This document shows positions 13,443 to 62,488 of a stretch of 64,000 nt of DNA, piece by piece. The notes beneath the pieces were generated by a model that was given only the letters and a program-made list of their open reading frames with translations, did not search any database and had not been told where the DNA came from. The stretch covers positions 28,967,963 to 29,031,962 of the forward strand of contig NC_091142.1 in NCBI RefSeq assembly GCF_041381155.1, written 5' to 3'. A program made the position numbers and the translations under genes. Position 1 is the first letter of the stretch. Each line of letters opens with the position of its first letter. Source of the DNA: Argopecten irradians. Its lineage: Eukaryota; Mollusca; Bivalvia; Pectinida; Pectinidae.

Positions 13443-16400
13443 AACAATGAACTCTGACAGATAAAACGCTTTTAAAGCAGAAGAAATTTGATGTTTATAT
13501 TTGCGAATCAAAAGAGGGGTGAGGTTTGCTATTATGTATACTTGCACACATTGTACATTGCTACAACCAGCAGAGTGGTTTCTGAAATACAGCTTTTCAT
13601 TTTCTATCAATTTATAGATAAAAAAATTGAGCATCTCTTCATTACATTTGATTTCATGACAGAAACAATCTCATTTCATAACAAAGACGCAATATTAATG
13701 AAGAATAAAATATCATTTTTTCATTATGAAAATCAGTTATTTTGTTTTTTTTTAACATGAAATCAACATTGCTCGCGAGCAATAGAAACGTTCACACATG
13801 TATGAGAAAGATTTCTTCACTATCTTTCTACCAAACAATTTTCTGAATCTAAGATGGCTCAAAATATAATAATCCATGTTGGAATATGATGGTTTCCAAA
13901 AAAAAACCAGGAAGCATAACTAGGGGTTAAGGGATGATTAATTGCTCAAAAAAGATTCTTCTAGTATGTGAGAAATAGGAAAAATGTTTTTGTCAAATTC
14001 AAAGATGGTAGCTTGTGAACCATCTTGTTTTTGGGTTGGTACCAAAATGCAACCTACACAACTGTTATACAGGCTATAATATTATACCCCTGCAACGAAG
14101 TTAAGGGGGGTATACTGGAATCAGGTTTTCTGTCTGTCGGTAGACACAACTTTGTCCGGTGAACTAAACTACTGGACAGATTTTGATAAAATTTGGTACA
14201 CAGAACCCAGATATAAAGGGAAGTTGAGTAAAGTATATAGGGTTCTGCAATGTCCCCTAGAGCTATTAAATTTGTGTAGCAGTCATCCACTCTGGTGACA
14301 GTGCTTGTTTTGATCTATTAGAGTTATCTCCCCTCATTACACTCTGTCCGATGATATACCGGTAATACACTCTGTCCGATGATATACCGGTAATGGTTGT
14401 TATTTAAGTTGCAGAGAATGGATCTCACCTGCTCAGCTGAGTTCATTCTTCAGGAAATGTTAAATAATGCAAGTGTATACATGTATTGTGACAGAACACT
14501 ATAGACTTATAACATTCAAGTAAAACAGCACAATAAACTCTGTAACAAATCTGATATATTTTGTTTGATGATTCACATTTTATTTGCTCATGTATTTATA
14601 TATTTACAAATATTTACAAAATTTTTGAGCAATATAAAAATGAAGTTTATGAAATAAGCTCATACACATTTCACTTTAAGCTAGATATTTACATTCTTTT
14701 ATCAATAAAATATCTTCATATTAGGGGCGATATCACAGATTTCTTTAGAAGCTGGCATACCCATCATACGTAGTACACCAAAAAAAACATTAGACAACAA
14801 CTGTGATGAAAACAAAATAAATATAATATATAATTTGTATATTTACATTTTCCTACTTCTGATTCTTGTTTTATATAAAGCACAGCCAATAATGTCCCTT
14901 TTTTTACAGGAAAAGTGTGTCAGCAGTTTTAATACTGATGACACAAATCTGTCTTTGTTTTCCAAAGAAGTAAAACTTTCTGGTATTGAAGGAGATTGAG
15001 CCAATCAGAATAATTGTGACATATAAGGAAGACCAAGTTAAATTTCAAGGTCACGCCTGCTTACATTTCTGAATCAATTTAAGATACCAGCTAGAAATAT
15101 GTACTATTATACTTTGTGTAACATTGTTTCATATGTCCTCCATGATTTGATTAACACATCATTAGAGACCTAGCATTTCTCTCTTGTGTACTGTTATTGA
15201 ATCTTTCTACGTTCACAAAAAAACCCAATGTATATGTAATACTGGTAATCATTCACCAATCAGAGACAATATTACATGTCACTTGTAAGAATCCACCAAT
15301 GTTTATTTGTTTTTGTGATGTCACTTTTGTTCAGCTCATTAACCAATGAGAAATCCTGTTACATTTCACTTTGTGGTGTCTCATTGTACATGGAGAATCC
15401 TAGCACTTCCTTGGAGAACATGTCTGCTGTGATCTGATGTGGCAGATTCTGGTCGATAATGTCACCAGCTTGTGACGAGTCAAACTCCTGTAGCTCACTG
15501 CTGCCACCTTCAGCGTTAAAGCCCAGCAATGTAGTCAAATATTCTGCTAGTTCATACTCTGTCATATGCTCACCTGCAAACAAAGTCAAAAGGTGTTTTA
15601 AATTCAGCATTTAATGGCGTTTATGATTATTAAATTGTATGCTATATCCATGATAATCCGGATGCAAATAGTTTGGAAAACTCACATTACAGACAGAATA
15701 TCAGGGAACAAATGATTACCGTATTCTCTGTAATTAGCACCCCTCGCTTTATAAGTGTCCTTCCTCCCTTCTGGAGAAGGAGTTGAAGTTGTGTAAACGC
15801 CCCCCCCCCCTCCCATCCTATAGATTTAACAATATTTTACAATGAGTGATGCTTCTAACATCAGTGTTGAAGGAATTTCAAGGAAAGTATTTAGAAGTAA
15901 AAAATGATAGCTATGAAAATTAAAGTATTTACCTTTAGTTTGTAAATAGTCGAGAAGATCTCCCCTCTCAATGGCACTGCCTTTATGTGAAGCCACACCA
16001 AGGATATCAAAGGCTTCAATCAACTTCTCAGGATCAAGGCCAAAGGCAGGGCGATGATTTGTGTATACTGATGATAAAAGATATATAATTCATTGATAAT
16101 AAAACAGGTTCAATAAACAGAAAATAATTTGAAAATAACATCAATTTCAAATATTCAACTTAGTTCCACTTAAAGTCAACTTTTTATTGATGCATTGTAA
16201 TTTTGAGTATTTAAAGTAGTGTTTAACATACACAAAACAATTCTACAGAATCCTTTAAAGGTTTTGATTAATATAGGTCAGATATCAAAAATGTAGGTCA
16301 CATTAACCTCAACATGTCCTTGATATAGCAAACCATAATGATATTGCTTTGAATTGATGTTATTGAAATGTTCCTAGAATAAACTATGACAATCAACAGA

Positions 16401-17026
16401 ATGTTGAAGATTCTTTGAGTCAAAGAGAGGAAAACCACTTAATTATACTGTTCTTTTTTTTAATTTTATATTTACATTTTTTAAATTTCACTTACACTTG
16501 ATGAATTCTCCAAGATCGATGGAGTCAACATATTGCCCTGTCTCCACATATCGACTAAATTTCACCTCATTCAGCATATCTTCTATCTGGAATGTAAAAA
16601 AATGACAAATACATCATGTTTGAACATGTGAAATTCTGAATGAAAATCAGAAATCCTGAATGGCTCCCAGAATACAATGTAGTTTCAAAATTTTCAAGCA
16701 GGATTTAAAAAGGTTCAACTGTCAGGGTAGCATTTCATAATTTATGATGTTTGTAACCATAAGGCCTTAATTACTGTAGAATACATTGGTCAACATCCTA
16801 AAATATCAGCTGAAATGTAACATTGAAAATAAAATTAAGAGATCAATAATGCAATATCTACTGATATCCTGTAAAAATCTTAAACTTAATCCACCCCTAT
16901 TTTTTTATTTTCTGATTGCATGGGTACTTCATTGCTCAGGATCGACTTACCTCTTGCTCTGAGGGGTAAAATCCCATAGCTCTCATAACAAATGGAACTT
17001 CAGAAAGTGGTATCTTTGTAGTTACC
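13443..17026. repeat. Tandem segmental duplication, unit A
   Basis: This 3584-bp unit is repeated immediately to the right (17027-21023). The two are nearly identical, with scattered single-base differences and small indels that I estimate at ~1%. The left edge is at AACAATGAACTCTGAC. The right edge falls inside a CFAP251 exon, where GTTACC is joined straight to the start of unit B. The unit covers the CFAP251 3' region and its last three exons plus part of a fourth. Non-coding parts hold a 29-bp two-copy repeat (CACTCTGTCCGATGATATAC, near 14340) and a ~200-bp stretch near 14090-14290 that resembles an interspersed repeat. Confidence 0.95.
15359..17026 (-). pseudogene. CFAP251: Duplicated 3' exons of CFAP251 (partial copy A)
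   Basis: Copies of the last four CFAP251 exons lie at 16951-17026 (partial), 16496-16586, 15933-16067 and 15359-15573. The last three keep their acceptors, donors, frame and stop, and the predicted residues match the complete copy. The partial exon is cut at the duplication junction, so its first 30 bases and its acceptor are missing. The block has no promoter and no 5' gene part. It could be expressed only by read-through past the end of the complete copy at 19354, with splicing into the acceptor at 16586. That would give extra EF-hand-region exons. More likely it is an unexpressed duplicate, or an assembly artefact from two haplotypes. Confidence 0.85.
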
Positions 17027-20000
17027 AACAATGAACTCTGACAGATAAAACGCTTTTAAAGCAAAAGAAATTTGATGTTTATATTTGCGAATCAAAAGAG
17101 GGGTGAGGTTTGCTATTATGTATATTTGCACACATTGTACATTGCTACAACCAGCAGAGTGGTTTCTGAAATACAGCTTTTCATTTTCTATCAATTTATA
17201 GATAAAAAATTGAGCATCTCTTCATTACATTTGATTTCATGACAGAAACAATCTCATTTCATAACAAAGACGCAATATTAAAGGCCCATTACCTTTCCGG
17301 AGCAAAATATAAAGTTTTCTTAAAAAACATTAATAACACCAGAAAATGCATACCGATGATCTAAAATAAGGTTACGACACCAAACATATGCAAGATTGCC
17401 TGCGTAATATATGAAAACAGCGGAGAGTCAATTCGCTGTTTTGCCGTCTGGCGCAGTGATATTCAACTACCGCGCGGCATTTAGGACGACGGCGGGAAAC
17501 ATAATACGACCCGCGTTATGAAAATAAACATTTTATTTATTTTAATCAAATCGTTCAGAAGGTGATGATAAATGTAGTATTAACGGTAAGTTAATAATTT
17601 TTAGGACTCTACAAAATTATTGATCCTGTTTTACATTCCCATTTTTAAAATTAAAAGCCGTTTCGGAAAGGTAGTGGGCCTTTAATGAAGAATAAAATAT
17701 CATTTTTTCATTATGAAAATCAGTTATTTTGTTGTTTTTTAACATGAAATCAACATTGCTCGCAAGCAATAGAAACGTTCACACATGTATGAGAAAGATT
17801 TCTTCACTATCTTTCTACCAAACAATTTTCTGAATCTAAGATGGCTCAAAATGTAATAATCCATGTTGGAATATGATGGTTTCCAAAAAAAAACAGGAAG
17901 CATAACTAGGGGTTAAGGGATGATTAATTGCTCAAAAAAGATTCTTCTAGTACCGGTATGTGAGAAATAGGAAAAAATGTTATTGTCAAATTCAAAGATG
18001 GTAGCTTGTGAACCATCTTGTTTTTGGGTTGGTACCAAAATGCAACCTACACAACTGTTATACAGGCTATAATATTATACCCCTGCAACGAAGTTAAGGG
18101 GGGTATACTGGAATCAGGTTTTCTGTCTGTCGGTAGACACAACTTTGTCCGGTGAACTAAACTACTGGACAGATTTTGATAAAATTTGGTACACAGAACC
18201 CAGATATAAAGGGAAGTTGAGTAAAATATATAGGGTTCTGCAATGTCCCCTAGAGCTATTAAATTTGTGTAGCAGTCATCCACTCTGGTGACAGTGCTAG
18301 TTTTGATCTATTAGAGTTATCTCCCCTCATTACACTTTGTCCGATGATATACCGGTAATACACTCTGTCCGATGATATACGGGTAATGGTTGTTATTTAA
18401 GTTGCAGAGAATGGATCTCACCTGCTCAGCTGAGTTCATTCTTCAGGAAATGTTAAATAATGCAAGTGTATACATGTATTGTGACAGAACACTATAGACT
18501 TAAAACATTCAAATAAAACAGCACAATAAACTCTGTAACAAATCTGATATATTTTGTTTGATGATTCACATTTTATTTGCTCACGTATTTATATATTTAC
18601 AAATATTTACAAAATTTTTGAGCAATATAAAAATGAAGTTTATGAAATAAGCTCATACACATTTCACTTTAAGCTAGATATTTACATTCTTTTATCAATA
18701 AAATATCTTCATATTAGGGGCGATATCACAGATTTCTTTAGAAGCTGGCATACCCATCATACGTAGTACACCAAAAAAAACCATATTAGACAACAACTGT
18801 GATGAAAACAAAATAAATATAATATATAATTTGTATATTTACATTTTCCTACTTCTGATTCTTGTTTTATATAAAGCACAGCCAATAATGTCCTTTTTTT
18901 ACAGGAAAAGTGCGTCAGCAGTTTTAATACTGATGACACAAATCTGTCTTTGTTTTCCAAAGAAGTAAAACTTTCTGGTATTGAAGGAGATTAAGCCAAT
19001 CAGAATAATTGTGACATATAAGGAAGACCAAGTTAAATTTCAAGGTCACGCCTGCTTACATTTCTGAATCAATTTAAGATACCAGCTAGAAATACGTACT
19101 ATTATACTTTGTGTAACATTGTTTCATATGTCCTCCATGATTTGATTAACACATCATTAGAGACCTAGCATTTCTCTCTTGTGTACTGTTATTGAATCTT
19201 TCTACGTTCACAAAAAAACCCAATGTATATGTAATACTGGTAATCATTCACCAATCAGAGACAATATTACATGTCACTTGTAAGAATCCACCAATGTTTA
19301 TTTGTTTTTGTGATGTCACTTTTGTTCAGCTCATTAACCAATGAGAAATCCTGTTACATTTCACTTTGTGGTGTCTCATTGTACATGGAGAATCCTAGCA
19401 CTTCCTTGGAGAACATGTCTGCTGTGATCTGATGTGGCAGATTCTGGTCGATAATGTCACCAGCTTGTGACGAGTCAAACTCCTGTAGCTCACTGCTGCC
19501 ACCTTCAGCGTTAAAGCCCAGCAATGTAGTCAAATATTCTGCTAGTTCATACTCTGTCATATGCTCACCTGCAAACAAAGTCAAAAGGTGTTTTAAATTC
19601 AGCATTTAATGGCGTTTATGATTATTAAATTGTATGCTATATCCATGATAATCCGGATGCAAATAGTTTGGAAAACTCACATTACAGACAGAATATCAGG
19701 GAACAAATGATTACCGTATTCTCTGTAATTAGCACCCCTCGCTTTATAAGTGTCCTTCCTCTCTTCTGGAGAAGGAGTTGAAGTTGTGTAAACGCCCCCC
19801 CCCCCTCCCATCCTATAGATTTAACAATATTTTACAATGAGTGATGCTTCTAACATCAGTGTTGAAGGAATTTCAAGGAAAGTATTTAGAAGTAAAAAAT
19901 GATAGCTATGAAAATTAAAGTATTTACCTTTAGTTTGTAAATAGTCGAGAAGATCTCCCCTCTCAATGGCACTGCCTTTATGTGAAGCCACACCAAGGAT

Positions 20001-21023
20001 ATCAAAGGCTTCAATCAACTTCTCAGGATCAAGGCCAAAGGCAGGGCGATGATTTGTGTATACTGATGATAAAAGATATATAATTCATTGATAATAAAAC
20101 AGGTTCAATACACAGAAAATAATTTGAAAATAACATCAATTTCAAATATTCAACTTAGTTCCACTTAAAGTCAACTTTTTATTGATGAATTGTAATTTTG
20201 AGTATTTAAAGTAGTGTTTAACATGTACACAAAACAATTCTACAGAATCCTTTAAAGGTTTTGATTAATATAGGTCAGATATCAAAAATGTAGGTCACAT
20301 TAACCTCAACATGTCCTTGATATAGCAAACCATAATGATATTGCTTTGAATTGATGTTATTGAAATGTTCCTAGAATAAACTATGACAATCAACAGAATG
20401 TTGAAGATTCTTTGAGTCAAAGAGAGGAAAACCACTTAATTATACTGTTCTTTTTTTTAATTTTATATTTACATTTTTTAAATTTCACTTACACTTGATG
20501 AATTCTCCAAGATCGATGGAGTCAACATATTGCCCTGTCTCCACATATCGACTAAATTTCACCTCATTCAGCATATCTTCTATCTGGAATGTAAAAAAAT
20601 GACAAATACATCATGTTTGAACATGTGAAATTCTGAATGAAAATGAGAAATCCTGAATGGCTCCCAGAATACAATGTAGTTTCAAAATTTTCAAGCAGGA
20701 TTTAAAAAGGTTCAACTGTCAGGGTAGCATTTCATAATTTATGATGTTTGTAACCATAAGGCCTTAATTACTGTAGAATACATTGGTCAACATCCTAAAA
20801 TATCAGCTGAAATGTAACATTGAAAATAAAATTAAGAGATCAATAATGCAATATCTACTGATATCCTGTAAAAATCTTAAACTTAATCCACCCCTATTTT
20901 TTTATTTTCTGATTGCATGGGTACTTCATTGCTCAGGATCGACTTACCTCTTGCTCTGAGGGGTAAAATCCCATAGCTCTCATAACAAATGGAACTTCAG
21001 AAAGTGGTATCTTTGTAGTTACC
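17027..21023. repeat. Tandem segmental duplication, unit B
   Basis: This is the second unit, 3997 bp. It differs from unit A in length mainly by the 400-bp transposon at 17282-17681 plus its 4-bp target duplication. Its right edge (21023) continues without a break into the rest of the CFAP251 exon at 20948-21053, so this unit is joined to the working gene. Confidence 0.95.
17282..17681. mobile_element. 400-bp MITE with TTAA target duplication (empty site in unit A)
   Basis: The ends are inverted: AGGCCCATTACCTTTCCG on the left and AGGCCCACTACCTTTCCG reversed on the right. TTAA is duplicated at 17278-17281 and 17682-17685. The matching place in unit A reads ATATTAATGAAG with a single TTAA and no element, which is a true empty site. 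No coding capacity is seen. TTAA targets point to a piggyBac-type or similar transposase. Confidence 0.92.
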
Positions 21024-30955: not shown

Positions 30956-33900
30956 ATGGCGGGAAACATGACAGCGGACTTCCTAGTGTTTTTATCAAAA
31001 CATCAAGACGAAATTACAACTTACGTTGTATATCCTTATTTGATCTTAGCAGTCGTCGTGTATCTAGTGTTTGGAAGTATAAGGAGTTTTAATTATAGAA
31101 CAATTTCTGCGTCTGTGCCTCAGAAAATCCTGCTAATCACCGCTCATCCAGATGACGAATGCATGTTTATGTCTCCCGTTGTACTGGCCCTTGTACGAGA
31201 GGGACATTTAGTTAGCGTATTGTGTCTTACTACAGGTACGTGTAAGCTATCGGTATCGTTTTAATTATACACGCCTTTATTTAAGGTCATTTGGTGGAAG
31301 ATTAATGGCTTTTACTGTCCTACAGATAAGTGGGCGTGTCCCATCAAGGTATTTACATGTGTAGGTCTGTACATGATCATGGTGTACTGTAACAGCAATG
31401 GCATTATGGGAGATCTCCCATTGCGAACTCGGACCATTGTATATTCCGCTTATTCAAACATTGACTATAAAAAGAAAAGTCACGTCGCCCATATGGGCTA
31501 GCAATTTAACATTAAAAAGAAACTAATATATAACCATTCTTGCAATATTATAAGAAAAAAATCTTAATTGATATACATATGCTTTCCATATATTTACACA
31601 ATTATCAGAATTATACCATGTATACATGTACTGGTCGGGTATTTCCTTATACTGACTGCCCTATACAGATATCTTACAGGGGTATAGTTAACCCGTAACC
31701 CATTCCAACTCTTACCCACCAACCCTTACCCAAAATTGGCGAAGTCGTACCCAAAATATTTGGCGAGCTCGTACCCATGATTGGCTAACCCGTATCCGTC
31801 AAGTTCTGTTGGTTTTCAAATTTAATTAAAGATATTAATGTTAATTTCCTCTGTTTATCTTATACAATATATCACGGGCCTAAATAATTGAGTCGATGTT
31901 GATATATTCCATTACCTGGTAAAATCAGAAAATATCTGGTAAAATGCTATATACTTTTCAAGATTACAAATACACTACAATACATTAATCAATAATGTTA
32001 CATTTACATACACATGTACTTTGAAATATTTTACAAGGTATAACATCTGGAATAATTTTGTGTAAAAGTTAAATATATTTCTAAAACATCTTCTGAGCCA
32101 GTTGTGACTTTACACAGCAAATGTTCAATCATTTTAAAAGCTGATTTCCTTTTTGTTTGACTGTCTTGTAAAAAAATCCCATGAAGCAAAATAGATTGTC
32201 TCTAAGCCTTTCTGCTTTTTGAAAAACAAGTCTGTAACCCATAGATGATAACTTTCGAACAGAAATTCAATAGAGAAACAATAAAGATTGAAAAAAAGGG
32301 TTGCGTCAATTTGTTGCTGTCGTATAAATAATGTGGGTTATTGTCAAGAAAACACATGTGAAATTATTTTGAAAATCAATAAGCTATATACGGGAAAATA
32401 CACAAGAGGGGGAAAAATGTTAAATTACTAAAAATGAATAAATCTTGGCTGGAATATCTTGTGTACCATTTTGTGATCACTAACTAGTAGCATCTGATTG
32501 AACACAAATATATTAAGTCTTATATAAATCACAAATATCTACATGAACTATAAATTTTATGATGGGTACGAGTACGCAAAATTCAATGGGTACGGGTTCG
32601 CCAAACTTGGGTACGGGTCGAATTCGCCATGCTTGGGTACGAGTTCGCCAAATGTGGGTACGAGTTTGTTTGGGTACGAGTTTGAATGGGTACGGGATCA
32701 CAATAATTCATCTTACATACCATAATATATGAAAAATCTTAGGTTGAATGCAGATATATTGCATATATTTGGTAAATTGTCGTGTACATATCATGCAAAA
32801 CTCATCTTCACTATATACAATGTAATCAGCTAGAATACAGTATGTGAACTACTTGTATAACATTATATTGTTATGATAAACTGAAGTATCGGTCAGATTT
32901 GATTCTACCTACATATTTTCCAAAATGTTTGTTTCGAAACAATAAATGTTAGTTAGCCTGTACACGTTATAATTTTAATTGTAGGAAATTATTATGGCTT
33001 GGGAGAACGTCGTAAAGAAGAACTATTCCAAAGCTGTGAGTTGTTGGGAGTTGGCAGACAACAGGTCAAGATAGAGAATAACTGGTTAGTTAAACATGGG
33101 AAAAAGATGTCCACACAGTTGGAATTACTTCTTTGTTCCATATTTACCATTTCAAGTAAATCGTATCCTACAGACGTTTGATGCGATCCTGGTGTCATGT
33201 GGACAATCTTGTTAATATTACTTCTTTGACCCTGGTTAGTTATATATACATATATGCAATACAGGAAGAAGATATGTGGAAGGTATATCGGTAACATGAC
33301 TCCACAATTAACTTATAGGTATATGGCCTGAACCAATGTTCTCATATTGATAAAACATGTTCTCACAATGACAAAAGTACATGCATGTCATTTCATTGAG
33401 GGTTGTGGGGATTGATAATAATTACAATGATAAATGAAGCCATAGCAATTTTTTCACACACTTTGGTTTTGGGACATATTGTAAAGTAATCAGACCCTAA
33501 TATAACATTATAGTTCCAGTCTTATTATAATTCACAATTGTTTTCAAATATAAAAAATTATATTGGTAGAAGACGGTAAATAATTTATGTATTTTATGAC
33601 TTGTAGCTTATATCCAGACAATCCATCTGTAACTTGGGACGAGGAAGCTGTTAGTGAGAGGATGAGATCTACAATCTATTCTATACAGCCGAATGCAGTA
33701 AGTATCATGTTTTAAAAAAAACATGCCATATGCAGTAATTATAAATATCAAGTACATGTAATACCATATAACATGAGAAATAGTCAAGATACACTCTAAA
33801 ATCTTATGAATGTGAACTGACTAAGCTTGAGCAAATATAATATTCACTAAGTATTTTTTGAACTTCGTAAATGCAGACCTGTATTAATATCTTGAACGAG

Positions 33901-36900
33901 TTGGAAAATAAGATTTACTGGACTGTAAAATTATTATCAAAAATTAAAATTATAGAGTTATTGCCCTTTTCTTAGTCATTTTTGATTTTGAGTGTGTCAT
34001 TTTTAGATGAGTATATACCTAGAGGGAGGAAAAATTAGATTTTGTGTATCGAAAGCCATAAAAACCTTGAGATATGTTTTAAGTGAACATCTGGTGTGGA
34101 GAGTTAACCCTTGCTATCATTCCTAAGATTCTATTAATCACCATCAACCCGATAATCATTTAATCACTCTTCGCAATATTAGATGATAAAGATTAAAGTT
34201 TTCAACCACTATCATGAAATAAGAGATCCTATCCCATCCTGTTCTGTCCAGATCTTCTGTGGAGGCAGGAGAGCTGTGTCTAGCTATTCTAACATTTGGT
34301 AACACATGTGTTTTTCAGGTGATTACATTTGACTCCAGCGGTGTCAGTGGACATGGTAATCATAAAGCAGTTTACTCTGCTCTAATGTAAGTTTGTATCA
34401 TAGAACAGTTTACTCTGTTCTAATGTAAGTTTGTATCATAGAGCAGTTTACTCTGCTCTAATGTAAGTTTGTATCATACAGCAGTTTACTCTGTTCTAAT
34501 GTAAGTTTGTATCATAGAGCAGTTTACTCTGTTCTAATGTAAGTTTGTATCATAGAGCAGTTTACTCTGCTCTAATGTAAGTTTGTATCATAGAGCAGTT
34601 TACTCTGTTCTAATGTAAGTTTGTATCATAGAGCAGTTTACTCTGCTCTTATGTAAGTTTGTATCATACAGCAGTTTACTCTGCTCTAATGTAAGTTTGT
34701 ATCATAGAGCAGTTTACTCTGTTCTAATGTAAGTTTGTATCATAGAGCAGTTTACTCTGTTCTAATGTAAGTTTGTATCATAGAGCAGTTTACTCTGCTC
34801 TAATGTAAGTTTGTATCATACAGCAGTTTACTCTGCTCTAATGTAAGTTTGTATCATAGAGCAGTTTACTCTGCTCTAATGTAAAGTTTTGTATCATAGA
34901 GCAGTTTTACTCTGTTCTAATGTAAGTTTGTATCATACAGCAGTTTACTCTGTTCTAATGTAAGTTTGTATCATAGAACAGTTTACTCTGCTCTAATGTA
35001 AGTTTGTATCATAGAACAGTTTACTCTGCTCTAATGTAAGTTTGTATCATAGAACAGTTTACTCTGCTCTAATGTAAGTTTGTATCATAGAACAGTTTAC
35101 TCTGCTCTAATGTAAGTTTGTATCATAGAGCAGTTTACTCTGCTCTAATGTAAGTTTGTATCATAGAACAGTTTACTCTGCTCTAATGTAAGTTTGTATC
35201 ATAGAGCAGTTTACTCTGCTCTAATGTAAGTTTGTATCATAGAACAGTTTACTCTGCTCTAATGTAAGTTTGTATCATACAGCAGTTTACTCTGCTCTAA
35301 TGTAAGTTTGTATCATACAGCAGTTTACTCTGCTCTTATGTAAGTTTGTATCATACAGCAGTTTACTCTGCTCTAATGTAAGTTTGTATCATAGAAAAGT
35401 TTACTCTGCTCTAATGTAAGTTTGTATCATAGAACAGTTTACTCTGCTCTAATGTAAGTTTGTATCATACAGCAGTTTACTCTGCTCTAATGTAAGTTTG
35501 TATCATACAGCAGTTTACTCTGTTCTAATGTAAGTTTGTATCATAGAACAGTTTACTCTGCTCTAATGTAAGTTTGTATCATAGAACAGTTTACTCTGCT
35601 CTAATGTAAGTTTGTATCATAGAACAGTTTACTCTGCTCTAATGTAAGTTTGTATCATAGAACAGTTTACTCTGCTCTAATGTAAGTTTGTATCATAGAA
35701 CAGTTTACTCTGCTCTAATGTAAGTTTGTATCATAGAACAGTTTACTCTGCTCTAATGTAAGTTTGTATCATAGAACAGTTTACTCTGCTCTAATGTAAG
35801 TTTGTATCATAGAGCAGTTTACTCTGCTCTAATGTAAGTTTGTATCATAGAACAGTTTACTCTGCTCTAATGTAAGTTTGTATCATAGAACAGTTTACTC
35901 TGCTCTAATGTAAGTTTGTATCATAGAACAGTTTACTCTGCTCTAATGTAAGTTTGTATCATAGAGCAGTTTACTCTGCTCTAATGTAAGTTTGTATCAT
36001 AGAGCAGTTTACTCTGCTCTAATGTAAGTTTGTATCATAGAGCAGTTTACTCTGTTCTAATGTAAGTTTGTATCATACAGCAGTTTACTCTGCTCTAATG
36101 TAAGTTTGTATCATAGAACAGTTTACTCTGCTCTAATGTAAGTTTGTATCATAGAGCAGTTTACTCCTACTCCGCTCTAATGTAAGTTTGTATCATAGAA
36201 CAATTTACTCTGCTCTAATGTAAGTTTGTATCATAGAACAGTTTACTCTGCTCTAATGTAAGTTTGTATCATAGAACAGTTTACTCTGCTCTAATGTAAG
36301 TTTGTATCATACAGCAGTTTACTCTGCTCTAATGTAAGTTTGTATCATAGAGCAGTTTACTCTGCTCTAATGTAAGTTTGTATCTTTTGTCTTTATACAG
36401 GGACTTCGAGATCTCAAAATGATGTGTGTAAAGTACGATTTACCTTTGATTAGTCCCACCTTCCGGTGACTATGACGTCACAAAAATCATGTCAAATGAT
36501 GACGACATAATCACTGGATAGTGGCCATGGGATTAATCGATGGTAGATCATGGTTTCTCTAGTATAATGTATTTGATGTAATTTAAAAGATATTTTGAAA
36601 ATTGCAGCTATATTTATAAAATTGATATACTCAATAGATATTTATGAATGCTAAAATACAGTAAAACCCCTATAACTCGAACAGCAGGGGACCAGGTCAA
36701 TAGTTCGAAGAATACGGGGTATTCGACTCATCCTAGGTTGGTCATGATCGACAGTCAAAATGTCCGGTTTCAAACTATGACAAACAATGCACGGCAATGC
36801 CATTTTGATTACCCTATCTTTCAGCAATTTTAATTTCTTTATTTAAGTGTTTTATTGATAGCAATATCAAGTTGAAAAAAAATTATAACATAAATTTAGC

Positions 36901-39900
36901 GTTTGAAAAAGCTAACGAGAAAGCCCTAAATCAAAGTCATTCACATCAGAGTAACCGATCGTCATCTAGGTTAATGTACAATCCATATTGGTCAACAAGG
37001 AGTACATTTTCTATCATTTAATTATTACAACTCATTCAAAACATTTACAAAATACATACCCACAATAAAGTTATTAATCAGCATATTTACGGACATAAGA
37101 AATGATATCTATAGATGTCTATTTAGTAAAAGCGTAACGTTGGGTTACATGTGTTCACGAGTAAAGTTACAAAATACAATATACGGGAAAAGATAAGGAA
37201 CTCACTGATAAAATGTACTTTGCATATATTGTTTGATATCGTTTAAATCTTTCGGCAAATAACATTGTGTTAGCCTGTCGAACGAAACCAACAAAGAAAT
37301 TAAAAAATATATAAACTTTTATAATTAGGTGGACGTCAGCAATATCTTCCGCCTCTTTGTCATTTCACAATGCGTGCTTTCTATTAACACGGATCAACAA
37401 CTTCCGTATTTTCGTATTTACAACGAAGATTATTACGAGAGAAACATCAATAACTTAATGCCTTTTCTGAAATATTTAAATAAAGTTAGCATCAAACAAC
37501 GACTTCGGGTAGGTAGGTAATAATGACACCATTAATCCCTTAATTACCTAAGGGCTTGACACGCCAACTGTATAAACACAAGATCGTGAGCAATTATCCA
37601 TGACGGTCGGTGCAGTCAGGTGTGACACAGGTAACAAAATCTCAAGGGCCGAACACCTATTCGACGAATACAAGGGTAAATACTATGTATTTGATGAAAC
37701 GGGGACATTTTTCTGTTCGAGGAATAAGGGGTATTCGACGAATAGCTGTTCGAGCTATCCGGGGTTTTGTTACATAGATTATATAGAGAGACGGTCGGGA
37801 CCGTACGACCAGTTCGACGAACAGGGGGTATTCGAAGAATCCGGGTTCGATTTAGAGGGGTTTTACTGTATGTTTTACTATCAAAATATGTATAATTCAA
37901 AGCATAAACATTGATGTATACTGTTAACTATTACAGGAGTATGTGCAGCAAAGGGATCCTGCCTCAGAGTAAGTATCTCATGTGTTCATTCTCATGTCTC
38001 AACAAAGGGATCCTGCCTCAGAGTAAGTATCTCGTGTGATCATTCTCATGTCTCAACAAAGGGATCCTGCCTCAGAGTAAGTATCTCATGTGTTCATTCT
38101 CATGTCTCAACAAAGGGATCCTGCCTCAGAGTAAGTATCTCATGTGTTCATTCTCATGTCTCAACAAAGGGATCCTGCCTCAGAGTAAGTATCTCATGTG
38201 TTCATTCTCATGTCTCAACAAAGGGATCCTGCCTCAGAGTAAGTATCTCATGTGTTCATTCTCATGTCCCAAAAAAGGGATCCTGCCTCAGAGTAAGTAT
38301 CTCGTGTGATCATTCTCATGTCTCAACAAAGGGATCCTGCCTCAGAGTAAGTATCTCATGTGTTCATTCTCATGTCTCAACAAAGGCATCCTGTCTCAGA
38401 GTAAGTATCTCATGTGTTCATTCTCATGTCTCAACAAAGGCATCCTGCCTCAGAGTAAGTATCTCATGTGTTCATTCTCACGTCTCAACAAAGGGATCCT
38501 GCCTCAGAGTAAGTATCTCGTGTGATCATTCTCATGTCTCAACAAAGGGATCCTGCCTCAGAGTAAGTATCTCATGTGTTCATTCTCATGTCTCAACAAA
38601 GGGATCCTGCCTCAGAGTAAGTATCTCGTGTGATCATTCTCATGTCTCACCAAAGGGATCCTGCCTCAGAGTAAGTATCTCATGTGTTCATTCTCATGTC
38701 TCAACAAAGGGATCCTGCCTCAGAGTAAGTATCTCATGTGTTCATTCTCATGTCTCAACAAAGGGATCCTGCCTCAGCATAAGTATCTCATGTTTTCATT
38801 CTCATCTCTGTCTAAACAAAGCGATCCTGCCTCAGAGTAAGTATCTCATGTTTTCATTCTCATGCCGGTTAAACAAAGTAAGTGTCTCATGTTTTCATTC
38901 TCATGTCCGGTTAAACAAAGTAAGTATCTCATGTTTTCAAAAAAGTAAGTCTCATGTCATGTTTTCATTCTCATGTCCGGTTAAACAAAGTAAGTATCTC
39001 ATGTTTTCATTCTCATGTCCGGTTAAACAAAGTAAGTATCTCATGTTTTCATTCTCATGTCCGGTTAAACAAAGTAAGTATCTCATGTTTTCATTCTCAT
39101 GTCCGGTTAAACAAAGTAAGTATCTCATGTTTTCATTCTCATGTCCGGTTAAACAAAGGGATCCTGTCATCATTGATTTGGTTTTGTTACGGATTGGAAT
39201 CCTATCATGATGACTGTTTAACACAGTGACAGAGACTACATATGATTTGGTGTGGCTCTATTTTGTTGCACAATAATATTGTCACTCTTTACATATAGAG
39301 ACAGAATATTAAAGGGACAATTCACTCAGGCTAATTCTTTACATAACCAAGAAGCAAAATATGGCATAAATGTATTGTTCTACATTTCTTATGAAACATA
39401 TAACATAAAATATTGACAAATTCCACGTCATTGTTTAGTATTTTAATCTATACCGTTGTAATTATAAATCGTTGATCAATACGATTCAGCAGGTAAAATA
39501 TGTACGCTGTATCTATACCCGAGCCAACGTCACGCATGTTAAACAAATGAATTGCATAAACACTGTGTAGGTGATAAAATGATTTTTTTAGACGAGTCAA
39601 TTCACCTAATAAGGTAAACACATTACTGTCAGAGCGATTTGAGCACTTCTAGACAAAAGGAGCATTACTCTACGAGCAAGGGACGGGATTCGGCATACAA
39701 GATGTTTGACCACAATGTGTAATGGTGGACAGTGAGCGAGTTTGAACATTCCACACGCATTTAACCACCATGGGCTTTTCTGGCATATCACAGTAAAACC
39801 GACTGATCTAATTTCCATTAGAACTGGTTTTTTCCGATATATGTACAAATTTTAATGTTCTTTTAGCCTGAATTGTCCCTTTAAATAGAATCAAACATTT

Positions 39901-48986: not shown

Positions 48987-51900
48987 TCTCTAGACTTGTG
49001 ATTGGTCAGCTTTTTTATCCTGATCTGACCGAAGGTCAGGATGACCTATTGTCATCGTGTTTCGTCCGTCGTCGTGCGCCGTCCGCCGTCCGCCGTGCGC
49101 CGTCCGCCGTGCGCCGTGCGTCGTGCGTAAGACTATTTATACAAAAGCCTACTCCTCCTTAACCCTTGAGCGGATTACATCCATATTTGGTGTGAAACAT
49201 CATTGGGGAAGGACAATCATATTTTATATAAATGAGCCTGGTCCGACCCCTTGGGGCTGAGGGGTGGGGCCCCAAAAGGGCAAATTTTCTTAATTTTAGC
49301 TTTAAAATCCTACTCCTCCTTCATCCTTGGATGGATTTCATCCATATTTGGTGTGAAACATCATTGGGGATGGACAATCATATTTTATATAAATGAGCCT
49401 TGTCCGACCCCTAGGGGCTGAGGGGTGGGGCCCCAAAAGGGCAAATTTTCTTAATTTAAGCTTTAAAATCCTACTCCTCTTTCATCCTTGGATGGATTTC
49501 ATCCATATTTGGTGTGAAACATCATTGGGGAAGGACATTCATATTTTATATAAATGAGCCTGGTCCGACCCCTAGGGGCTGAGGGATGGGGCCCAAAAAA
49601 GGGCAAATTTTCTTAATTTTTGCTTTAAAATCTTACTCCTCCTTCATCCTTGGATGGATTTCATCCATATTTGGTGTAAAACATCGTTGGGGAAGGACAA
49701 TCATATTTTATATAAATGAGCCTGGTCCGACCCCTAGGGGCAGAGGGGCGGGGCTCCAAAAGAGGAAATTTTCTTAATTTAAGCTTTAAAATCCTACTCC
49801 TCCTTCATCCTTGAATGGATTTCATCCATATTTGGTGTGAAACATCATTGGGGAAGGACAATCATATTTTATATAAATGAGCCTGGTCCGATCCCTAGGG
49901 GCTGAGGGGTGGGGCCCCGAAAGGACAAATTTTCTTAACTTTAGCTTTAAAATCCTACTTCTCCTTCATCCTTGGATGGATTTCATCCATATTTGGTGTG
50001 AAACATCGTTGGGAAGAAGGACAATCATATTTTATATAAATGAGCCTAGTCCGACCCCTAGGGGCAGAGGGGCGGGGCTCCAAAAGAGGAAATTTTCTTA
50101 ATTTAAGCTTTAAAATCCTACTCCTCATTCATCCTTGAATGGATTTCATCCATATTTGGTGTGAAACATCATTGGGGAAGGACAATCATATATTATATAA
50201 ATGAGCCTGGTCCGACCCCTAGGGGCAGAGGGGCGGGGCTCCAAAAGGGAAATTTTCTTAATTTAAGCTTTAAAATCCTACTCCTCCTTCATCCTTGGAT
50301 GGATTTCATCCATATTTGGTGTGAAACATCATTGGGAAGGACAATCATATTTTATATAAATGATGTCCGACCCTAGGGCAGAGGGGCGGGGCCCCAAAAG
50401 GGCAAATTTTCTTAATTTAAGCTTTAAAATCCTACTCCTCTTCATCCTTGATGGATTTCATCCATATTTGGTGTGAAACATCATTGGGGAAGGACAATCA
50501 TATTATTATATAAATGAGCCTGGTCCGACCCCTAGGGGCAGAGGGGCGGGGCTCCAAAAGGGGAAATTTTCTTAATTTAAGCTTTAAAATCCTACTCCTC
50601 CTTCATCCTTGGATGGATTTCATCCATATTTGGTGTGAAACATCATTTGGGAAGGACAATCATATTTTATATAAATGAAATAGATCCGACCACTATGGGC
50701 AGAGGGGCGGGGCCCCAAAAGGGCAAATTTTCTTAATTTAAGCTTTAAAATCCTACTCCTCTTTCATCCTTGGATGGATTTCATCCATATTTGGTGTGAA
50801 ACATCATTGGGGAAGGACATTCATATTTTATATAAATGAGCCTGGTCCGACCCCTAGGGGCTGAGGGATTGGGCCCAAAAAAGGGCAAATTTTCTTAATT
50901 TTAGCTTTAAAATCCTACTCCTCCTTCATCCTTGAATGGATTCCATCTATATTTGGTGTAAAATATCATTGGGGAAGGACAATCATATTTTATATAAATG
51001 AGCCTGGTCCGAACCCTAGGGGCTGAGGGGTGGGGCCCCGAAAGGGCAAATTTTCTTAATTTTAGCTTTAAAATCCTACTTCTCCTTCATCCTTGGATGG
51101 ATTTCATCCATATTTGGTGTGAAACATCGTTGGGGAAGAAGGACAATCATATTTTATATAAATGAGCCTGGTCCGACCCCTAGGGGCAGAGGGGTGGGGC
51201 TCCAAAAGGGGAAATTTTCTTAATTTAAGCTTTAAAATCCTACTCCTCCTTCATCCTTGAATGGATTTCATCCATATTTGGTGTGAAACATCATTGGGGA
51301 AGGACAATCATATTTTATATAAATGAAATAGATCCGATCACTATGGGCAGAGGGGCGGGGCTCCAAAAGGTCAAATTTTCTTAATTTAAGCTAGATCCTA
51401 CTCCTCCTTCATCCTTGGATGGATTTCATCCATATTTAGTGTAAAACATCATTGGGGAAGGACAATCATATTTTATATAAATGAGCCTGGTCCGACCCCT
51501 AGGGACAGAGGGACGGGGCCTAAAAAGGGGAAATTTTCTTAATTGAAGCTTAAAAATCCTACTAGTCCTTCATCCTTGGATGGATTTCATCCATATTTAG
51601 TGAAACATCATTGGGGAAGGACAATCGCATTTTATATATGAGTCTGGTCCGACCCCTAGGGGCTGAGGTGTGGGGCCCCAAAAGGGCAAATTTTCTTAAT
51701 GTTAGCTGGCCCACTTCCTGTTTTCAGATTTTGGTCTCAAATCTCAATGAAAATTGGTCTATAGGGGTTTAAATTAATGCCGAACAACATGCAAACATTT
51801 TCATTAAGTCTTTGGTTTTCCAAGATGGCCGCTGGCCCACTTCCTGTTTTCAGGTTTCAGTCTCCAATCTCAAGGAAAATTGGTCTATAGGGGTTTTAAT

Positions 51901-56900: not shown

Positions 56901-59900
56901 TATGACGAGAGCGAGCCAAAGCTTTGTGAGGTTCGCAAAATTTTCAAGAAGGTACGAACAGGATCAGCACCATGAACCAACGGAGAACCATTAAGGGTTT
57001 ACAAGAACTACCCAGGACTGTTGAGAAGGTTATGACTTTTGTTTAGGAACGTATGGAGAAGGTGGCGTTTTGGCAGAGAGCTGGATTTATAGCAGAGGGC
57101 TGCTTTTTACCAAAGGAAGGATACTAAAAACCAATCAGCCAGTTCAGGACCATATCTTTGCTGAATGTGGAGAAAATGTCATGTTAGCCATCTCAGCAAA
57201 GCGATGGACGAAGTACATGCTGGACAACAAATACAAAGACAATTTAGTGCAAAGGGAGACATTCCAGGCGTATCTAGATGTCTGGAACACACCAGCGTAC
57301 TGACCCAAACAATCAGGGAAGCAAGGGAAAACAAGGTCGATGTTGCCCTGGCTCGACCTGCCTAATATATGTGGATGGTTCCATACCACACAAACTAGAA
57401 GAGATGACGACGGAAAAGTATCATGTGCCCGAGAAGTTGAGAATTCTTCTCAAGGATAAGTTTAACAGATTCCAGATGCGCCTCACTATAGGAGACTACG
57501 CAACAGCTTGGAAGAGACTGGAGGTCGGGATCACAGGGACTTGTAACGTAGGTTGTGAGAAAGTCTGCTGTGTATACATGTGTACTATATACTATATAAA
57601 AGGACAAGGGAACCAACGACTCGCTTGGAAGAGGTACACCTGCCTCTACAAAAGTCGCCCGTATTCCGTCAAACATGGATAAATATGTACATATTTAATA
57701 CCAATATATTCTTAAATAAATTTTCGACATGGAAAACACAACTTCAAACACGAATTAATATATTAACATACCTTTATTTCACTATGAACGTGGAAAATGC
57801 AGTCAGATATCACCGATGTCGTTTTGCCTGTCCACTGAAATCTAGGTTAAACACGTTTGTGTAGATATTGTGTACCCCATACCCGGACCCGGACCGGAAA
57901 CACCATATACCCGGTGTCTGTACACTAAAAGCTACAATATTAGTACAACATTAGAGCCTCAATTTAAGTTAGATTCTTCAATTAATGATACATGCATCTC
58001 AAATAAAGGTTCTTCTAAGAACCTTAACCGTGAAACTTAATTTATACAGAGTCTGAGTACAGAATTTCAGTGCAGTATCGGGTAAGGGCGAGTACACGAA
58101 AAAGGTACCCATCATCAATTACAAAATGGCGGATTATACGAACAAGAGTCGAGTGCTGGATAAAAAAAGTGTGATTCATCGCTTAGCTGTTGGATTGGAT
58201 TAATGAAAGAGTTATCAGAGATAGCCTATTTGTATTTGCAATGGGAAAATATCACCAGAAAGTGAAATGAATGCATACAAAATTTGTTACAAGGGAATAT
58301 GAGTGCTTTTGACCTAGATTTCAGTGGACAGGCAAAACGACATCGGTGATATCTGACTGCATTTTCCACGTTCATGGTGAAATAAAGGTATGCTAATATA
58401 TTAATTCGTGTTTGAAGTTGTGTTTTCCATGTCGAAAATTTATTTAAGAATATATTGGTATTAAATATGTACATATTTATCCATGTTTGACGGAATACGG
58501 GCGACTTTTGTAGAGGCAGGTGTACCTCTTCCAAGCGAGTCGTTGGTTCCCTTGTCCTTTTATATAGTATATAGTACACATGTATACACAGCAGACTTTC
58601 TCACAACCTACGTTACAAGTCCCTGTGGTCGGGATTGCCACTGGGTGCACGATATCTGCCATACTCTTTGCAGCAGCGTTGGACTTGATCATTAATGCTG
58701 TTGAGAAGATGAGTAGGGGTCGTACCTGTCAACAGACAGTAGGCGACCACCAACCAGAGCTTTTATGGATGACGGTAACTACAAAGACAGCGGTAGAAAG
58801 AAGGAAGACCCTCAGAGATCCAGAATATATGATCACTTGGGCCCGCATGAAGTTCAAACCAGTCAAGTGCCGGAGTCTCGTTCTAAAAGCAGGCAAGGTA
58901 AAAGAGCCTTGGCAAGTGGTTTGATGTTTCACTGAATGGCAGAGACAGTGTGGTACGTAGAAATGAAGAAGCAGCCAGAGGAATGGATTAAGGCAGTTGA
59001 GAAGACTGGAACTCCCAGGGAAGTTCAAGGCCTGGATATACCAGCATGGCGTACCACCCAGACTTTTGTGGCCATTGGTCGTCTACGAATTGTACAGAAG
59101 TCAAGAACTGTCATGGGTTCCCCACATTTCATCACATGCTCATTTATACTTGTCATATTATTCCACAATGCCATATTAATGGCCTATTATGGAGATTTTC
59201 AAATACTTACCAAGAAGTACGCCATTCCTGTATATTTCTTCAACCTCATCCCAAACAACATCCACTTCCGAGTACGATATCCCGGTAGCGTTCACAAGAG
59301 GTGGAGCACCATCAGGGGCTAGGGATAAATATGTGTGCTTATGGTGATAATGCTATGGATACAAAACATTGACTTGGTAATCGTCATATACATGACAGTG
59401 ACCATAATAGGATACATCTTAATTATATGTATAAACCATCACTAATTTTCAGATTACTGCGGTGCTAATAATATTTAGGCAGTAATGTACGTTTTCGCAG
59501 TTTATATTTATTTTCTCAGTACATTACGTACAATACATTTACCTGTATATGATAAAGCATACAATGAACTTGTAATAATCGGAGCGAATACTGGATGCAC
59601 CTTATATGGTTGTGCGCGTCATTTGATGAGAGGTACATACCATCTGTCATAGATTTACAATCCAGGGTGACATCAGCCTCGTTCCCGCTGGCAGTGTAAC
59701 AATGCAGGTTTGCTGTGTAGACAGCATATTTCCCCACGCCATACACTGTATAGGTCTGCACCAAGTAACCAGGGATGTCGACTTGCTGTAATTTAATAGA
59801 TAACTACGGTTACAATGTATACAGAATGTATTTCTGTACTGGTCTTTTCATTTTCACAATTCATCTTTTTTATCACCTCCTTTAGTGGAATATACAGTCG

Positions 59901-62488
59901 GAGCTACCTTTCCGGCACTTAGAACTTAAATAAGACACATCTTACATATCACATCTAGTATTTATTGGTCAACTGATGCCGTTAGGACAAGCACCAACAA
60001 ACAAACTGAATGATCGAAAACAATGTAACTTGTTGTGAAATCCTCGACCTGTTGTGGAAAGTTAAACTGATATTTATGAACATCAGAGATATATTGTCTG
60101 ACTAAAAAGTACGGGTATTTCACAGGTTGTTGGGCTCACTGTAAGTGTATGAATTAATGAAGAGGCACTGTTAATCTTTTGATTGTAGATAGTGCTATGC
60201 TGGGGAAATGTTTGACCTGTACGTACCAGGAACTGGATGATATGTAGACTGTTCAACAAAACAACAGTGTACTTTCCGAGATATTATCGACCTGTAGACC
60301 ATCTGACAGGAAATAAGCATACCTACTTAACTCATCGCTCAGAGCCTATCTCATTTTGCCTTCTTTTACTTCTAGACCATATACATCGTATCTTCCGTTT
60401 ACTCGATTTGTAGCTAGCTCTTCCTTTTATGAGGTGGAAGAGATCTACTGAAAAGAAGTAAGCGTTCTTACCGCGAAATCGTCAACATTTACATTGTATA
60501 CTGTCTGACCGGAAGTTAGTGTACTAACAGGAAAGTCATTGACCTGGTTACCATCTGACCGGAAATTTGCGTACTTACCGTTAAGTTATCGAAATGTATA
60601 GAACATCAGACCCCAAGTTAGCGTACGTACCGGGAAGTTACCGACATTAAGGCCATCTTAACGGAAGTTATAGCGCACTGAACGGGAAGTTATCGATCTA
60701 AAAACCATATGACCGGAAGTTATAGCGTACTTGATCATTTGACCGGAAGTTAGCGTACTTATCGGGAAGTTATCGATCTAAAAACCATGCATATGATCGG
60801 AAGTTATAGCGTACTTACCAGGAAGTTACATTGTATCAACCTGAAGACCATATGACCGGAAATAAGTGTCCTTACCGGGAAATTATCAATCTTGAGACCG
60901 TCTGACCCGAAGTTAATGTACTTACCGGGAAGTTATATATATATCGATCTAAAAACCATATGACCGGAAGTTGGTGTACTAACCGGGAAGTTATCAACCT
61001 GGAGACCGTCTGACCGGGAGATGGTAAGATGATAGCCCTGTACCTGACTCATGGGGTCGTTTGGCCTCACCCAAGTGAAAACAAAGGTCGTTGAGTTGGT
61101 GGAGGTGCATGCAAAATTAGACGGAATAACTGAAAATATAAAAAAATACAACTATTTCCATATATGGTGTGATCCGTTAAAAATGTAATTTTATTAACGG
61201 ATCACACCATATATGGAAATATTTGTTCGTCTTATCTAACAAAAATATTTTTCGTGTCACCTATGTGCCGTCGTCGTCCGGTCATCTACGTAGCTATAAA
61301 AAGAACCTCAACATTAGATATAATCTACACAGTATTTGGACCTATCCTCGTTTATGGGATCTGGGATTTTGGGTGAAAATTCTTCTTCTATTTGTGACGT
61401 ATATCTGCTATCCTATTTGCTAATGCTTTTTCTGGTTTACAAGTTTGAATAAGGAATGATGCAGTTGCTAGGTATTGATCGTATGTCGGTGTTTTTTTTC
61501 TGTGGACACTCCGATTTTCCCCGTCTCCTTAACCTGCAGACATGTGCTTAAACGAACATGACTGAATGTTAAAGGAATATTAAAAATAAAAGGTTATGAA
61601 TCGATGATTTCTTTTTATTTTCTTAATAAAGACATCAGTAGAATTTTATGAACACTTGTAAGTTTGTAACATTTAGCATCTTCTCGCAAGGATCATTAAT
61701 TCAAACTTTTTTTTTACTCCAAATAATGACAGTTTCAATCGTCCATAAATGCGAATTGAAAATTGTAAAATTAAATTGTTTGAAATTGAAAATTGTACTG
61801 CCTCTCTTCATTAATCTCGGAACTTTTATTTTCCCGGATAATATAATTTTGTACCAGTTGCTCTTACATTTGCCTAGTTGATTCTAGTAATTCTAGTTAT
61901 GCAGAAGCAAATGACCATCGTCATTATTCTCTTACTGAGTTTAAAATGCTTGTAAAATAAATGAAATATTTCCGACTCAATTTACTTGGAGTGTCATTAA
62001 TTAGTTTGAAAACCATACAAACCGATCGCTATAGACCGACTTCCGTTGGGTGGCCGTTATATCGTATTAAGTATCAATGATATCACTATAGTTTACTATA
62101 TTCATAAGAAATTTAGCTATATTCGCTATTTCGACGAGATTTATATCGAAACTTACTGATATTGTTCATGTTGTTCATATTGTATATTTATTTTACGAGT
62201 GGCCAATGTTACTTAGGTTTTTATCTTATCGCAGATAAAACTGATAAGTTCTCTTTATGTAAATTATATTTCAGAAAACAATTCTATCCAAAGATATATT
62301 TTAGTACTGGTTTATATAAACTTTAATGTAATTTACATTTTTAGGATGAATATTTATATTCTAAAGTCATCAGAAGACCTGTGTACTGCTTAAATTATAA
62401 ACCCCATAAAATTTAATAGATACTTACATTGTCCAAAGGCCGGAACAAAAAATCCAAAAATCACCATAAACACGCCGAAAACATCCAT
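53935..62488 (-). CDS. Fibronectin type III single-pass membrane protein, 404 aa, eight exons
   Basis: Exons 5' to 3' (high to low): 62488-62428, 61129-60984, 59785-59641, 59318-59211, 56492-56313, 55961-55941 (21 nt), 54820-54640 and 54307-53935 (stop TGA). All are GT-AG with a continuous frame. Residues 1-19 are a signal peptide (MDVFGVFMVIFGFFVPAFG). Residues ~21-117 form one FN3-like domain and ~118-213 a second, with the typical NLDYDTKYVVSVLAYTSVGDG near its end. Several N-glycosylation sites are present (NST, NAT, NWT, NAT). After a short PVTTAPG linker comes a membrane segment at ~246-265 ending in CCC, possibly acylated. Then follow an Ala/Gly hinge, a run of 11-12 Gly, and a cytoplasmic tail rich in Asp and Pro. 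I know no named orthologue; a receptor or adhesion role is inference. Confidence 0.82.
55704..55763. repeat. Short inverted repeat (19-nt arms)
   Basis: The arms AGAATTACTTCCCTTCGTT and, reversed, AGAGTTACTTCCCTTCGTT enclose a 22-nt loop. They resemble the ends of the MITE family at 45566 (CAGAGTTACCTCCCTTG) and may be a solo remnant. It lies in the intron before the 21-nt exon of the FN3 gene. Confidence 0.7.
56780..59110 (+). mobile_element. Broken retroelement fragment with reverse-transcriptase coding traces
   Basis: Plus-strand fragments left and right of a later insertion resemble the reverse transcriptase of a widespread invertebrate retroelement that I recall as LINE-like. Recognisable pieces include IPGVSRCLEHTSVLTQ on the left and ARMKFKPVKCRSLVL on the right. 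It is clearly a fossil with several breaks and no intact frame. No long terminal repeats were seen, and the outer limits are approximate. It lies in intron 4 of the FN3 gene, opposite in orientation to it. The exact class is uncertain. Confidence 0.7.
57532..58627. mobile_element. Foldback DNA transposon with 316-bp inverted repeats and 8-bp target duplication
   Basis: The arms 57532-57847 and 58312-58627 are inverted copies of equal length (316 bp) and nearly identical. They begin CACAGGGACTTGTAACG and enclose a 464-bp non-coding centre. The direct repeat GTCGGGAT (57524-57531 and 58628-58635) flanks it exactly, an 8-bp target duplication. It has inserted into the retroelement. An 8-bp duplication fits hAT, P or Merlin-type transposases; I cannot choose, as no transposase is present. 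Confidence 0.93.
60440..60984 (-). repeat. Degenerate ~52-56-bp array made from FN3-gene exon 2 end plus splice donor
   Basis: Read on the minus strand, exon 2 ends GGTCTCCAGGTTGATAACTT + CCCG at 60984, with donor GTTAGT. Downstream in the intron, about 10 diverged copies of that end follow (for example GGTCTTCAGGTTGATACAAT, AACTTCCTGGTAAGTACGCT). Most keep CTTCC[CT]G|GTAAGT and the spacer AACTTCCGGTCAT. Copies vary in length and carry small insertions, so this array is older than the two in PIGL. Confidence 0.88.
61154..61220. repeat. Perfect 27-nt inverted repeat upstream of the exon 2 acceptor
   Basis: The arms 61154-61180 and 61194-61220 are perfect inverted copies (starting ATTTCCATATATGGTGTGAT) around a 13-nt AT-rich loop. 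On the minus strand the hairpin ends 24 nt before the exon 2 acceptor at 61130, where a branch point would be expected. It may be a MITE relic; an effect on splicing is conjecture. Confidence 0.93.

Follow-up and report, generated by a model that had tools for sequence, protein, structure and literature searches.

Tandem copies that run across exon-intron boundaries have been described in amphioxus as mirages (PMC3087553, PMC3902484). According to the available parts of these reports, the units are 10-160 bp long and occur at 5' and 3' boundaries alike, with examples in Adh3, the globins BflGb6 and BflGb9, TnC, and PGBD5. The AG/GT signals are present in many, not all, of the units, regular splicing is undisturbed, and the arrays are unstable in length and somatically. 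Tandem duplication or DNA repeat expansion has also been described as a source of gene structure in the intron gain of the potato RdRp gene (PMC4974935) and of Cryptococcus (PMC2395259).

The window analysed here, which is the whole stretch of 64,000 nucleotides from Argopecten irradians, contained three arrays of this kind. Like the mirages in the accessible text of the amphioxus reports, the arrays consisted of minisatellite-like tandem units across the exon-intron boundary, here of an FN3 gene and a PIG-L-like gene, both boundary types were hit in this genome (donors at loci L059 and L080; acceptors at L062, L071, and L072), and the splice signals were kept in many, not all, of the FN3 units. 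Unlike those reports, as far as their available parts go, the host is another genome, known here from one assembly, an array can hold up to 53 copies, and acceptors, intron interiors, and random sites were compared. As judged from their sequence, the arrays appeared to match mirage-type structures, a kind already reported in lancelets. Among the literature matches listed, which were mostly non-subscription, neither a genome-wide survey of mirages nor mirages by name outside lancelets were found.

Introners are said to occur as many splice-signal-bearing copies per genome. With the introners in the available part of one report (PMC9860276), our arrays share the presence of many copies with splice signals within one genome; unlike introners, the copies here stood head to tail at one place and came from the exon next to them, and the genome search gave no dispersed copy of the FN3 array. 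Tandem duplication would be a source of new gene structure here as in potato RdRp and Cryptococcus, but, by what the available parts of those two reports describe, the present case differs in that an existing intron was lengthened and no new intron or exon was observed.

Three arrays at the exon ends of two genes

The FN3 gene is located on the minus strand. Its signal-peptide-like exon 1 (62428..62488) ended at a GTAAGT donor without a listed array and was joined in frame, by hand translation, to the 146-nt exon 2 (60984..61129), which is the seed exon of the array. The genuine donor of exon 2 was GTTAGT (60978..60983, minus strand; read at 60983-60978), as the earlier note had it, and the exon/intron junction read CTTCCCG/GTTAGT. 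Exon 3 (59641..59785, minus strand) had a donor without a listed array and was located within the Pfam fn3 match of the joined exons (E=1.1e-07). At 61221-61153, ~23 nt upstream of exon 2 and beside its acceptor, two nearly perfect inverted arms of ~28 bp enclosed a short loop and formed part of a 135-nt fold of -50.9 kcal/mol.

In the intron following exon 2, ten degenerate copies were arranged head to tail at 60462..60973 (minus strand) in units of 50-58 nt, one of which was truncated to 28 nt, in line with the approximately ten copies of the exon end and donor that the earlier note had described. Each unit was composed of the exon-2 tail, the donor, and ~10 nt of the intron start, with the exonic share corresponding to the terminal ~48 nt of exon 2. 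An outlying diverged relative of the unit (repeat family D2), carrying GAAAGT at the donor place, was present at 60265..60316 on the same strand. Local alignment of the exon tail with its own intron gave a score of 59, while the maximum among 500 Markov shuffles was 29. Compared with the exon copy, the copies were 68-86% identical in the aligned positions, gaps uncounted (n=9, the truncated copy omitted), and the mean pairwise identity of the ten full units, namely the exon copy and nine others with the truncated one dropped, was 76%. A genome search with the array, which skips very common words, returned a single match in the assembly, and a dispersed-repeat origin of the FN3 array was rejected on this result.

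The GT at the donor place was retained in 7 of the 9 scored copies; among all ten, GT was lost in two and the site was deleted in one. The claim that many copies carry the stronger GTAAGT needed correction: the exact motif was found in 3 of 10 copies, and under a generic donor matrix six of the nine scored copies outscored the genuine site. Read-through past exon 2 reached a stop after 16 intronic codons, ahead of the first downstream donor, and so the use of a decoy donor should truncate the FN3 protein. The 15-nt stretch encoding VDNFP, which the earlier note had proposed as an in-frame pseudo-exon, is inside the genuine exon. By direct reading, copy 9 contains an analogue, VNDFP, whose use as a micro-exon would be hypothetical.

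The PIG-L-like gene on the plus strand contained two arrays, so the claim of three junctions in two genes with one architecture proved right. The exon at 33607..33697 had a GTAAGT donor without an array. The tail of the next exon read (34319..34386) was the seed of array 1 at 34359..36384, which consisted of 53 copies of 38 bp with 96% matches, each unit being composed of the exon tail, GTAAGT, and the intron start. The tail of a 32-nt exon (37937..37968), which was joined in frame to the exon at 34319..34386, was the seed of array 2 at 37949..39158, where 17 copies of 54 bp were followed by eight copies of 42 bp with most of the exonic part deleted. In this 42-bp variant (38836-39158), GTAAGT was kept in the units read by eye and absent from the last partial unit. 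The joined exons matched Pfam PIG-L (PF02585) with E=3.5e-08, and a comparison of the protein with solved structures gave no match. Near 40.6 kb there was a stretch reading SVNILRKYVSFLDLP, of the kind expected next in such a gene; we take SVNILRKYVSFLDLP to be the expected continuation by comparison with human PIG-L.

The units of the three window arrays were mutually unrelated, and each was equal to its own exon tail. Divergence differed by array, from the 76% mean pairwise identity of FN3 to the 96% matches of the 38-bp PIG-L array. The authentic boundary copy at the array edge appeared intact, as indicated by the open frame and the Pfam fn3 and PIG-L matches across the seed exons. At the junctions read in these two genes, arrays were present at three donors and at none of the acceptors.

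Other repeats were observed as well. The window contained a 3.3-kb direct duplication (13695-17026 and 17682-21023) with 99.0% identity, and arrays of the heptamer GGGTACA inside a larger tandem repeat of ~475 bp (678-3268). Satellite-like repeats of 157-161 bp with a similar consensus by eye were present at 49143-51707 and 10914-11698 of the window and at loci L006 and L016. At locus L019 (3757-4643, minus strand), 10.7 copies of an 83-bp unit showed by eye an acceptor-like end, a body of ~54 nt, and a donor-like GT, and this array may resemble an array of mini-exons.

Donors, acceptors and intron interiors around kinase exons

The sample consisted of 60 of 142 kinase-domain matches in the 846-Mb genome, all partial-domain, hand-picked before the sequence was seen; full-domain matches were omitted, and further partial ones were omitted without a fixed rule. 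Each exon was taken with 450 bp on either side, and its boundaries were predicted by a generic matrix. Seven of the 60 predicted donors scored below 4 and are possibly misplaced, which would dilute the boundary matches. For the detection of boundary copies, 40-mers were locally aligned to 400 bp of intron with a score of at least 30 and inspected by eye.

Of the 60 exons, two carried copies of the boundary at the donor (95% interval 0.4-11.5%) and three at the acceptor, and all five matched the kinase domain. The donor arrays contained 12 copies of 39 bp (L059) and 2.3 copies of 95 bp (L080). The acceptor array of L062 contained ten copies of 46 bp across ..GGTCAG/ATCTGTGATTTTGG, where the matrix had placed the acceptor one repeat unit too far upstream and the true one, by eye, is likely ..GGTCAG/ATCTGTG; the acceptors of L072 and L071 carried boundary copies too. 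The same architecture was thus present at further genes of this genome, which bears out the proposal of a general process.

In an edge test with equal 220-base spans, in which copies were demanded on one side only, 2 of 60 donors and 2 of 58 acceptors were positive (3 of 58 acceptors when only an intron-side copy was demanded), giving 4/118 for the pooled boundaries. Interior sites of the flanking introns showed edges of the same type in 17/536 and of the opposite type in 5/529, and random sites in 18 stretches of 10 kb showed the two types in 159/8532 and 163/8532. Neither type was seen at sites inside the kinase exons (0/120 each). The boundaries did not differ significantly from same-type interior sites (Fisher, p=0.78), from random sites (p=0.29), or from the pooled interior (22/1065, p=0.32). 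Up to five interior sites were taken per intron and the 17 same-type matches fell in 13 introns, so the interior sites are not independent; two of these 13 introns (L071 and L072) also carried a boundary copy. Since opposite-type edges were rarer and the pooled comparison gave p=0.32, boundaries might still exceed the interior by as much as a few fold. Of 4068 random sites, 19.3% had a tandem copy no more than 400 bases away in one direction or the other. Arrays with an intact edge copy were shown at both boundary types, with a similar rate of edges in the intron interior, and it looks as if, in this small sample, boundaries were affected about as often as the surrounding intron.

Donor words in the genome and donor columns in arrays

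Pairs of the donor word CAGGTAAGT spaced 20-50 apart numbered 2460+1888 (4348) in the genome compared with 78+86 (164) for the reversed word, and those of a second donor word, AAGGTGAGT, numbered 617+602 (1219) compared with 33+14 (47), a ratio of ~26 for tandem pairs of the two words. As singles, CAGGTAAGT occurred 19404 times compared with 5409 for its reverse, and AAGGTGAGT 6634 times compared with 4784. At a period of 40 there were 147 donor-word pairs compared with 1, and among the 100 matches listed these came from 22 distinct loci over ~652 Mb, not counting one dispersed repeat. Because an array adds pairs with every copy, pair numbers do not give numbers of events, and the 26-fold ratio was therefore not taken as the size of a donor preference; its face value was rejected, as the 100 CAGGTAAGT pairs listed fell in 4 arrays (in 6.5 Mb) while the 100 control pairs listed came from 22 loci (in 495 Mb), one of which carries GGTAAGT. 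The 100 AAGGTGAGT pairs listed fell at 9 loci in 110.6 Mb.

The numbers of loci and their densities come from a count by eye among the matches listed (64 independent loci for CAGGTAAGT), except that the control density was taken from totals. Per independent locus, the tandem rate was 5.2% (1.4-13.4%) for CAGGTAAGT, 1.4% (0.7-2.8%) for AAGGTGAGT, and 0.7% (0.45-1.1%) for the control, which for both words is reversed CAGGTAAGT, the reverse of AAGGTGAGT having been counted without a locus listing. By locus, the donor words were thus in excess by about two- to sevenfold, and the intervals were wide. The acceptor word TTTTNCAGG gave 964+585 pairs compared with 1059+726 reversed and 23131+22903 singles compared with 22057+22036, and a polypyrimidine word gave 6+16 pairs compared with 2+51 and 1366+1304 singles compared with 1734+1774. 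Neither was clearly commoner singly than its reverse, which implied that these words do not mark acceptors here, and being unspecific they were not used as evidence for acceptors without arrays. The enrichment of donors over acceptors and introns looked for after the earlier note was not evident in the small kinase sample, but donor words did far exceed reversed words in tandem.

Five donor-word arrays were examined. That of L024 began where a guanylate-cyclase-like exon (Pfam) ended, and that of L026 began at an open exon-like stretch which ended at a donor and had no Pfam match. The array of L022 began at repeat-like sequence where no exon was visible, and in L023 and L025 the array edge was outside the examined sequence.

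Within five arrays, the nine donor columns had fewer mismatches than the remaining columns, for example 0/345 compared with 75/1262 in L025 and 2/477 compared with 47/1540 in the 38-bp PIG-L array. The comparison is biased because three of the five arrays were picked for carrying the donor word. The donor window ranked 18/38, 17/54, 4/46, 17/48, and 5/42 among all unit windows of the five arrays, and in L059, the sixth array tried, the donor was lost from the consensus. Donor-column conservation within arrays is suggestive.

How the arrays may have arisen

We consider it probable, at about 73%, that the arrays are minisatellites begun by duplication across an exon-intron boundary, as part of a general tendency to tandem duplication for which splice sites would not have to be special. 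Tandem duplications would be very frequent in non-coding DNA, and some would begin across a splice site, presumably via ordinary replication slippage or unequal exchange. In a donor array, the outermost 5' copy would stay the working exon end and the extras would be intronic, while in an acceptor array the 3'-most copy would stay the exon start. Arrays may be tolerated at boundaries because this outermost copy is intact; the copies past the first would be free to expand and decay, selection would probably clear duplications within exon bodies, and splicing would be mostly correct despite the arrays.

The earlier note had tied the arrays to the 5' splice site, through R-loop or nick-linked slippage. 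A process of this sort, which could also be U1-linked, would preferentially amplify the exon end and donor into the intron. The three donor and zero acceptor arrays at the junctions read in the two window genes, the ~26-fold excess of donor-word tandem pairs with 147 compared with 1 at period 40, and the two of five donor-word arrays (L024, L026) that adjoin an open stretch ending at a donor are consistent with such a process. It is unlikely, however, as acceptor copies were equally common among the kinase exons (3/60 compared with 2/60) and boundary edges had about the same frequency as interior edges of their type (4/118 compared with 17/536, with 5/529 of the opposite type in introns); moreover, copy number and the commonness of the donor word (19404 compared with 5409 singles) both weigh on the number of pairs, the L022 array starts at repeat-like sequence, and the sequence examined for L023 and L025 stops short of the edge. 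A donor preference of uncertain size is possible. It is doubtful that minisatellites in this genome are seeded preferentially at strong 5' splice sites, with a few percent of consensus donors amplified into decoy arrays, a rate several times that for ordinary words, which would imply a transcription- or U1-linked duplication step.

It is improbable that selection retains intronic arrays of 5' splice sites, either for U1 snRNP binding against premature polyadenylation or for splicing tuned by decoys. The lower mismatch of the donor columns in five arrays points that way, but three of these arrays were chosen by the donor word and the donor windows ranked from 18/38 to 4/46; in addition, FN3 lost GT in 2 of 10 copies and the site in 1 of 10, and the consensus of L059 has no donor. 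Insertion of a dispersed element, such as an introner or a minisatellite-carrying transposon, that supplied the exon end is highly improbable. One donor-word pair was indeed dispersed with the same sequence (C2:52929305, C9:33732172, and C9:33805894), but the FN3 array gave a single match in the genome search, with its seed within the fn3 domain, and the three window units were unrelated and matched their own exon tails.

The gene-anchored test suggests that such arrays can appear without any special role of splice sites. If the duplication of exon edges is routine in this genome, for which 2/60 donors and 3/60 acceptors give wide intervals, the arrays would be natural experiments on the choice of a donor among equal or stronger copies, and such genomes would also inform on how the borders between exons and introns shift.
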